Positions 25,924-63,662 of a stretch of DNA of 64,000 nt are shown in pieces. The stretch is from an uncultured Planctomycetota bacterium (GTDB lineage: Bacteria; Planctomycetota; Phycisphaerae; SM23-33): positions 1 to 64,000 of the forward strand of contig CAITIS010000102.1 in assembly GCA_903892515.1 (NCBI GenBank). The letters are read 5' to 3'. The notes below the pieces were generated by a model. That model had not been told where the DNA came from. It searched no databases and was given only the letters and a program-made list of their open reading frames with translations. The position numbers and the translations under genes are program-made. How positions within the stretch are numbered: position 1 is the stretch's first letter; each line of letters starts with the position of its first letter.

Positions 25924-26004
25924 GGCTATTCTCTGTCTGGGTGCCATAGGCTGACACGACTTCGCGTCTTCTTGCGGAGGCGGGTCTGCCTATGCGGACG
26001 TCCT

Positions 26005-26047
26005 GCATAGGTAGAGCCGCAAAAGCGCGGCTCAACCTATGGCACCC
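26005..26047 (-). repeat. REP1 palindrome copy
   Basis: GCATAGGTAGAGCCGC...GCGGCTCAACCTATGGCACCC: the stem with a central A/T mismatch and the GGGTGC foot (on the minus strand), identical in design to the copies flanking the RAYT gene at 51-52 kb. A half copy lies at about 25938-25965, and degenerate GGCACCC-containing palindromes continue to 26180. This gap of 262 bases holds no gene. Confidence 0.88.
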
Positions 26048-32537: not shown

Positions 32538-32580
32538 GGGTGCCATAGGTTGGGCCGCGCTGTTGCGGCACTACCTATGC
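32538..32580 (+). repeat. REP1 palindrome copy (diverged)
   Basis: GGGTGCCATAGGTTGGGCCGCGC...CTACCTATGC: REP1 foot and outer stem conserved, inner stem mutated. Another fragment, the complement of CCGTGGCACAGCCGCCCTCG, lies at 32670-32692. Together they occupy the thiE-GH94 gap and create the spurious N-terminal extension of the next ORF. Confidence 0.8.
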
Positions 32581-42942: not shown

Positions 42943-42987
42943 GCATAGGTAGAGCCGCTAGAAAACGCGGCTCAACCTGTGGCACCC
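42943..42987 (-). repeat. REP1 palindrome copy
   Basis: GCATAGGTAGAGCCGC...GCGGCTCAACCTGTGGCACCC, full REP1 stem with foot on the minus strand. A heptad array (CGATTCC, CAAATCC, CAAATCC, CGTCTTT) follows at 43026-43074. Confidence 0.88.
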
Positions 42988-46146: not shown

Positions 46147-46291
46147 GGGTGGCATGGTCAGGCTGTTCGCGTGACCATGTTCGGACTCGATACCGCGCCA
46201 TGACCACACTTTCATTGGCCCAATCATGTTTGCCCGTTGTGGGTCGAGAAAGTTCTAACATGGTCACGCGAACAGCCTGACCATGCCACCC
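46147..46291. repeat. 145-bp element with perfect 35-bp inverted ends (REP2 family)
   Basis: 46147-46181 (starting GGGTGGCATGGTCAGGCTGT) is the exact reverse complement of 46257-46291. The 75 bases between have no ORF of interest. The element is immediately followed by a heptad array (CGATTCC/CGCTTCC units, 46291-46330). It occupies the gap upstream of the large secreted protein gene. Confidence 0.92.
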
Positions 46292-51341: not shown

Positions 51342-51589
51342 GGGTGCCATAGGTTGAGCCGCGCCGTCTTCCCCAGGGTGCCATAGGTTGAGCCGCGCCG
51401 TCCAGCGGCTCTACCTATGCTCAAGACGCAATACCCCAGACCAAAGCCATTGTCGGCCCGGAAGCGGGTGCCATAGGTTGACCCGCGCCGTCTTCCTCAG
51501 GGTGCCATAGGTTGAGCCGCGCCGTCCAGCGGCTCTACCTATGCTCAAGACGCAATACCCCAGAGCACACCCATTGTTCGCTCAGACGA
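51342..51589 (+). repeat. Tandem 124-bp units carrying REP1 palindromes (left flank of RAYT)
   Basis: 51342-51465 and 51466-51589 are direct duplicates. Each holds one half REP1 (GGGTGCCATAGGTTG...) and one full REP1 hairpin (51376-51420 and 51500-51544: GGGTGCCATAGGTTGAGCCG ... CGGCTCTACCTATGC), then CTCAAGACGCAATACCCCAG. The stem pairs CATAGGT-GAGCCGC with GCGGCTC-ACCTATG with a conserved central T/T mismatch, a typical REP design. Confidence 0.93.
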
Positions 51590-51602
51590 GCACCGAGAGT
51601 GC

Positions 51603-52178
51603 CTACGCCCGTTGAATCGAGGGAAACGTGTCTCTATCGACGGCAAGCGGAACGTCAGCGTCCCCTTGCCACGCGTTCCAACTCGACCACCGCCACTCCT
51701 CTGGTGACTGGGCAAGTCCGCGTCTCACCGGGTTGCGATGAATGTATTGCACCTTCTCCCATAGTTCCTGCGCAGACCATATATTCCTGTCGTAACCTCC
51801 GCCAGGAAGCCAGAACCGATACTCGACCCTGCCACTGGGCTGAACATCGCGCACCGTCGCTAATGACTCTGCCTGATACGCGCGCAGCCAGGCCATGGCC
51901 CTGCGTGAAGTGGACAGTTTGATGCTCTGCAGAATCGATCCGACACGTGACTCATCCTGCGGAAGAATCAAGATATGCGCGTGTTCGGGCATGACGACGT
52001 AGGCCCACAGGGAGAAACCATATTGCCGGCGGGCCCTGTCGATCGCCTCGACAAACCACTGGCGAGTACGGTCGCGCGAAAGCAGCGGCTTTTTGCCCCA
52101 GCACGAGCAGGTTATGTAGTGAGCATGCCCGGGTATGTCATGGTGCTTGAGTCTGCGCCTGTGCAGGTCGCCTGCCAT
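51603..52178 (-). CDS. REP-associated tyrosine transposase (RAYT, Y1/HUH family)
   Basis: 191 residues from ATG 52178; the ORF-track extension runs through a REP. The HUH motif is VVMPEHAHILI (two metal-binding His). The candidate catalytic Tyr is in KVQYIHRNPVRRGL, aligning with the DYIYINPVK segment of E. coli TnpA(REP). The N-terminal HYITCSCWGKKPLL strand is also typical. RAYTs nick single-stranded REP palindromes at a foot sequence and are thought to spread them. The gene is flanked on both sides, in inverted orientation, by copies of the same palindrome (REP1), which occurs at least four more times in this window. No IS ends or tnpB are present, as expected for a RAYT. Confidence 0.93.
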   Translation of the reverse strand: MAGDLHRRRLKHHDIPGHAHYITCSCWGKKPLLSRDRTRQWFVEAIDRARRQYGFSLWAYVVMPEHAHILILPQDESRVGSILQSIKLSTSRRAMAWLRAYQAESLATVRDVQPSGRVEYRFWLPGGGYDRNIWSAQELWEKVQYIHRNPVRRGLAQSPEEWRWSSWNAWQGDADVPLAVDRDTFPSIQRA

Positions 52179-52231
52179 GCCATAGAGAATAGCCGGCGAA
52201 GGATGAAGGTACAATCTCGCGTGGCTGGCCG

Positions 52232-52276
52232 GGCATAGGTAGAGCCGCTGAACGGCGCGGCTCAACCTATGGCACC
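52232..52276 (-). repeat. REP1 palindrome (right flank of RAYT)
   Basis: GCATAGGTAGAGCCGC...GCGGCTCAACCTATGGCACCC, the mirror-image orientation of the left-flank copies. It is followed at 52280-52312 by short direct repeats of TGGCACCTATTTGC. Confidence 0.92.
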
Positions 52277-52333
52277 CATCTGCTGGCACCTATTTGCTGG
52301 CACCTATTTGCCGGCGTCCATTTGTGCGATCGA

Positions 52334-63491: not shown

Positions 63492-63662
63492 GGAGGTTGG
63501 AGGTCGGAGGCCGGAGGTCGGAGGCCGGAGGTCGGAGGCCGGAGGTCGAATGGGTGCCATAGGTTGAGCCGCGTCGTTTGCGGCTCTACCTATGCCAGAC
63601 CGAACCGCAAGGCAGCAGGTTTCCCGAGTCTTCCCGACTCCCGACTCCCGACTCCCGTCTTT
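63492..63662. repeat. Heptad array, REP1 copy and second heptad array
   Basis: 63492-63547: eight seven-base units, alternating GGAGGTC and GGAGGCC. 63552-63595: a full REP1 (GGGTGCCATAGGTTGAGCCG...CTACCTATGC). 63621-63662: units TTCCCGA, GTCTTCC, CGACTCC three times, CGTCTTT, ending at the stop codon of the next gene. No gene in this 236-base gap. Confidence 0.92.

Follow-up and report, generated by a model that had tools for sequence, protein, structure and literature searches.

A probable REPtron with a GGGTGC foot in a planctomycete and the clade of RAYTs to which it belongs

REPtrons and REPINs are already known, as are genomes with multiple RAYT-REP pairs, stems with a mismatch and the foot GTGG (PMC2817692, PMC3116915, PMC3733652, PMC3686654, PMC6006769, PMC8266576). 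In the E. coli TnpA-REP REPtron (Quentin subclass 2.2 / Bertels group 2; structure 4er8) a single gene for a protein with the Y1 HUH fold is bracketed by inverted REPs, the REP stem is long with a conserved internal mismatch and inverted REP pairs occur across intergenic DNA. The planctomycete locus described here shares all of these features but differs in its foot, which is GGGTGC where E. coli has GTAG, in its protein, which is 21% identical to the E. coli one in a structural alignment, and in a GGGYDRN block that the members of its clade carry after FWQ. A second point of comparison is the GTAG-tagged super-family (Di Nocera 2013, PMC3733652; Nunvar 2013, PMC3686654), where likewise a one-sided unpaired foot lies directly 5' of the hairpin and a genome holds several families with a RAYT for each. 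GTGG is a reported foot variant in this super-family. The last foot base is G in the super-family consensus sequences that we compared, whereas over half of the assigned loci in the clade studied here have C at this position.

The RAYT gene and the hairpins that bracket it

We analysed a window of 64,000 nucleotides from an uncultured Planctomycetota bacterium (GCA_903892515.1, contig CAITIS010000102.1; genome G000). An earlier note on this DNA had claimed a REPtron, consisting of a RAYT gene for a 191-residue HUH/Y1 protein with inverted copies of a palindrome, REP1, on both sides, each with the foot GGGTGC, a 15-position stem and a central mismatch. Each of these elements was found again at the locus, which has the following features:

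51603..52178 (-), RAYT gene P0001, 191 amino acids plus stop, HUH H66/H68 and catalytic Y145
52234..52277 (-), REP1 with foot GGGTGC, upstream (5') of the RAYT gene, 55 nt ahead of the ATG
52278..52311 (-), foot ladder, partial GGTGCC units adjoining the 5' REP1 on its upstream side
51500..51543 (+), REP1 with foot, downstream of the RAYT gene, 60 nt past the stop
51466..51499 (+), half REP1 (foot, 5' arm with one mismatch, loop)
51376..51419 (+), the other downstream REP1, likewise with foot
51342..51375 (+), half REP1 (foot, 5' arm, loop)
51342..51586 (+), 124-bp tandem duplication with a half REP1 and a full REP1 in each unit, 93% identity

The open reading frame of P0001 is intact, from the ATG at 52178 to the stop codon at 51603-51605, and contains the HUH motif PEHAHI (H66, H68) and the Y1 motif VQYIHRNPVRRG (Y145). 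The protein scores 93.5 bits against the curated NCBIfam model NF047646 (REP-associated tyrosine transposase; cut-off 80) and far under the cut-off of the IS200 model NF033573. Its match to PF01797 is only partial, as is typical for class 2 RAYT proteins (PMC6006769). A sequence search gave E. coli TnpA-REP (4er8) as the top match. An AlphaFold2 model built on an alignment of 25 clade members reached a mean pLDDT of 90, and when PDB folds were ranked against this predicted structure 4er8 came first (E 4.9e-9), followed by ISDra2 and IS608 TnpA. H66, H68, Y145, N149 and P150 are invariant across the 25 aligned members, and P0001 combines the HUH motif with Y---NP in a Y1 fold as class 2 RAYTs do. 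Family model, motifs and fold together identify P0001 as a RAYT, in agreement with the earlier assignment.

REP1 is made up of GGGTGC, CATAGGTTGAGCCGC, a loop of 6-8 and GCGGCTCTACCTATG, and the 15 positions of its stem comprise 7+7 Watson-Crick pairs flanking a T.T mismatch. In the predicted DNA fold of the three full copies around the gene GGGTGC is unpaired and T.T open (z about -4.5 to -4.7). These copies lie in mirror orientation with their feet pointing outward from the gene on both sides, the layout that had been proposed, and are accompanied downstream by the two half copies. The window holds 17 REP1 arms with at most 2 mismatches against 0.57 expected, a number reached in 0 of 100 shuffles. 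The gene is thus bracketed by inverted members of a REP family that is dispersed in the genome.

The foot ladder next to the 5' copy (window 52272-52311, minus strand) is one of several, in which truncated 5' REP units (GGGTGCC followed by a few to about 30 nt) are repeated directly upstream of full REPs; other examples are L134:5080 (-) and L098:6755 (-). An extra foot on the same strand lies no more than 40 nt away from 40 of 226 hairpins, where the genome-wide rate predicts about 1.5. Foot ladders could arise from slippage, template switching or repeated strand transfer.

REP1 in its own genome and in relatives

Exact REP1 arms occur 148+151 times in the whole genome (299 arms, about 150 hairpins), compared to 0+0 for the reversed pattern. 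Hairpin anatomy and the counts of paralogous families were obtained from a 1.20-Mb sample of the 4.89-Mb genome. All 74 REP1 hairpins in this sample carry the GGGTGC foot with at most one variant base, and the information content is near 2 bits at six positions of the foot and 0.6 bit at -7. Of the 75 REP1 entries, 71 have the central T.T and 48 have perfect arms. REP1 is mostly intergenic, with 5 of 75 copies inside genes as defined by a crude gene model made for this analysis (coding density 76%); together with the genome-wide count this bears out the suggestion that REPs of this family seed intergenic DNA. Inverted neighbours within 60 nt form 47 feet-outward and 7 feet-inward pairs. Many copies belong to REPINs, that is two inverted REPs with their feet outward and a short spacer in dispersed positions, with the recurrent order REP1, spacer CGGGACGTCCG, partner stem A2. 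Away from the RAYT gene the window contains:

25939..25994 (+), partner stem A2 with the foot GGGTGC, forms a REPIN together with 26006..26047
26006..26047 (-), dispersed REP1, the other half of this REPIN
32538..32579 (+), dispersed REP1
42944..42987 (-), dispersed REP1
63552..63594 (+), dispersed REP1

REP1 therefore works like a REP, yet by its foot, which is GGGTGC and not GT[AG]G in the 74 sampled hairpins, it stands outside the GTAG super-family.

We searched for REP1 in 34 genomes of the same family and found it in none of them, so that it is not equally abundant where this RAYT is lacking; such absences are soft because the assemblies are mostly drafts. Three cognate REPs from relatives were tested in the same manner and are essentially confined to the genomes holding the matching RAYT. 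The REP flanking the RAYT of G018 has 155 copies in G018 and at most 14 elsewhere, that of G019 has 96 copies in G019, five in G033 and none elsewhere, and that of G032/G033 has 33 and 56 copies in these two genomes and none elsewhere. Moreover genomes that have a clade RAYT are richer in the generic pattern GGGTGCCRYGG than those that do not (median log2 ratio to control 2.16 vs -1.0, p 1.3e-4). In G014 the pattern was counted 132 times against 10 for the control though the search for a clade RAYT found none there, and this and like exceptions may be orphan families or assembly gaps.

Since REP1 folds strongly and is found mostly between genes, it might instead consist of transcription terminators or mRNA-stabilising structures that are selected at gene ends and do not involve the RAYT, and such secondary roles are known for REPs elsewhere. 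We consider this explanation highly improbable: the six-base one-sided foot is conserved as much as the stem, the outward pairing into REPINs is a mark of mobile units, and absence from 34 of 34 relatives would be unexpected of a conserved terminator. The terminator reading itself was rejected because no T-run follows the hairpin in the sampled REP1 copies.

Our preferred explanation, which we hold with high confidence, is that P0001 and REP1 constitute a REPtron, a single-copy and probably host-retained Y1 transposase with its own REP family. According to this model REP1 would turn single-stranded, most likely on the lagging-strand template, and the RAYT would recognise the unpaired foot together with the mismatched hairpin. 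Cleavage near the foot via Y145 would give a 5'-phosphotyrosine intermediate, and the end would then be rejoined elsewhere. REP1 and its inverted pairs could thereby be copied or moved into intergenic DNA. The description of the system as active or recently active is plausible given the 48 copies with perfect arms; within the repeated DNA of G000 no clean empty site of a REP1 or REPIN was seen, the candidates being self-matches or adjacent REP arrays.

On the 3' side, position +1 of REP1 is C in 62 of 75 copies and is followed by a loose GGAC. A uniform cleavage dinucleotide 3' of the hairpin was not found across families, and the candidates GC or GA, predicted for a GTGC guide (Corneloup 2021), were set aside as not uniform between families.

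One foot, many stems in a planctomycete RAYT clade

Of the 885 GGGTGC hexamers in the 1.20-Mb sample, 226 run straight into a hairpin. The reversed hexamer CGTGGG does so in none of 1032 cases, and no other permutation of the letters exceeds 0.6%. The GGGTGC hairpins fall into families A/A2, B, C1/C2, D and E. There are 14 Y1_Tnp matches in the genome, and a fifth clade member was found on contig C155. The clade RAYTs on contigs C109, C94, C159 and C155 lie between copies of stems B, C, D and CGTGGTTTGCGC, respectively, whose foot is identical to that of REP1. This genome thus holds at least five clade RAYTs, each with a stem of its own on both sides.

This abundance of related enzymes offers a different origin for REP1, namely that it was spread by a sibling RAYT or an IS200-type TnpA of the same genome and that the RAYT of the window is flanked by it by chance. 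Enzymes sharing the foot might act in trans, given that REP families without a visible RAYT exist, such as family F. We nonetheless regard this origin as quite improbable, because among the 14 Y1_Tnp matches REP1 lies on both sides of the gene only at the window locus, with three full mirror-oriented copies, because the sibling RAYTs each carry their own stem instead, and because the one-to-one link between RAYT and REP is repeated in G018, G019 and G032/G033. It is thus the RAYT of the window that we take to be the partner of REP1.

Family F has the foot GGGTGG and the stem CATGGTCACGC, with T as the next base in 41 of 43 cases. It occurs at 46153 and 42893 in the window and at 42 places in the 1.2-Mb sample, and no cognate RAYT was found for it in G000. 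Another Y1 domain of this genome is embedded in frame in a valyl-tRNA synthetase ORF of 1252 aa (L129:7698-11453, contig C98), in the editing region just ahead of TTRPETMLGDT, and has 49-nt inverted repeats on either side. This architecture recurs in another genus (L077, G014) and therefore looks inherited rather than a recent accident.

Within the class, RAYTs similar to P0001 (E below 1e-20) were found in 94 of 298 genomes. One clade member comes from an isolate, Singulisphaera sp. GP187 (L048). GGGTG[CG]C points outward on both sides of 43 of 48 clade loci and on at least one side of 46, with differing stems, and flanks both sides of only one of 17 other Y1 loci (L066), itself a truncated clade member. 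Conversely none of the 48 clade loci but 6 of the 17 others have GTAGGG on both sides; GTAG is the foot of other RAYT clades in these genomes. In a tree of 62 proteins, arbitrarily rooted and with several long-branched outside rows, one branch (100/100) splits the GTAG group from the clade and the foot class changes once between them. Inside the clade the foot switches about seven times between GTGC and GTGG. The foot GGGTG[C/G], in place of the canonical GT[AG]G, is thus a shared property of a planctomycete RAYT clade, in which it may act as a guide; the earlier note had not pointed to this departure. At RAYT loci GTGC hairpins and GTGG hairpins differ in their +1 base (Fisher p 0.002, the loci being related), which avoidance of pairing with the foot would explain.

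RAYT-like genes whose flanking structures have non-GT[AG]G feet have been described before, as subclass 2.6 and class 3 (Quentin 2018, PMC6006769). As far as the descriptions in that paper go, the clade resembles subclass 2.6 in YIHxNP, in the long spacing between HuH and Y and in its SS tail. Next to the published description of that Bacteroidetes subclass the clade reads EHAH/EHVH vs NH[LIV]H, YIHxNP vs YIH[QN]NP, an HuH-Y spacing of about 79 vs about 82, and Planctomycetota vs Bacteroidetes. Class 3, by the same source (PMC6006769), also occurs in Planctomycetes but has a Y-motif ending in Q and the foot CnGA. The foot of subclass 2.6 is given only in the supplement of Quentin 2018, where GTGC may already be tabulated. 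A scan for GGGTGCC in the literature consulted yielded, among REP papers, only Stenotrophomonas REPs, in which the foot is GTGG and GTGCC belongs to the stem. What is probably new relative to known REPs is the GGGTG[C/G] foot in a planctomycete RAYT clade.

A unit that moved whole and its meaning

One relative, G101, bears on a further explanation, that the RAYT and its flanking hairpins form an insertion sequence transposing as a unit, with dispersed REP1 copies being its remnants or MITEs. In G101 a 753-bp block containing a clade RAYT and both bracketing hairpins is present five times, with three of the copies forming a 1.58-kb tandem array:

L164:2038-7035 and L165:1898-2650, 753-bp RAYT-REP units of G101

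Two copies at unrelated sites are 100% identical end to end, and some clade members have therefore moved as a unit. The block starts with GGCGGGGTGGCACTG and finishes with its complement, and hence ends about four bases beyond the foot. One copy breaks an IS5-like gene at the very point where intact copies of that gene continue, with a different IS on its other flank, and another lies in an RHS gene that lacks about 750 bp of paralogous sequence, near the unit's own length. The insertions thus come with loss or replacement of flanking DNA.

The G101 unit acts like a mobile element, and HUH/Y1 chemistry, subterminal hairpins and a 5' guide tetranucleotide, putative in the clade, are likewise common to the clade and IS200/IS605 TnpA (IS608, ISDra2). 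The system of the window differs from these in its class 2 motif Y---NP and in being a single-copy gene with dispersed REPs. The multi-copy, near-identical transposase gene expected of IS200/IS605 is found in G101, whereas the closest relative of P0001 in G000 is 54% identical. The approximately 150 hairpins occur as single REPs or REPINs without gene remnants, and the tandemly duplicated downstream hairpins are unlike a defined IS end. For the window we therefore judge a transposing unit unlikely and keep to the REPtron. The G101 unit is a computational counter-example to Quentin et al. that lies within the clade, not in the genome of the window.

With this work the known range of the REP-RAYT partnership comes to include a planctomycete-wide clade whose foot is non-canonical. 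The five clade RAYTs of one genome, with a stem for each, represent a ready-made specificity panel. Corneloup et al. showed for one system that altered foot bases can change the cut dinucleotide (PMC8266576), and the natural C/G switches would be the evolutionary version of that foot-change test. They open the way to a direct test of the guide-sequence model, which has so far been examined in a few proteobacterial systems. Tentatively, base four of the foot (GTGC vs GTGG) could be a guide letter that has been switched repeatedly, a natural rewriting of cleavage specificity, in a clade that would also span the boundary between retained RAYT and self-mobile element, as the G101 unit suggests. 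A relative in which the whole unit has moved bears on the passage of such enzymes between transposon and host gene.
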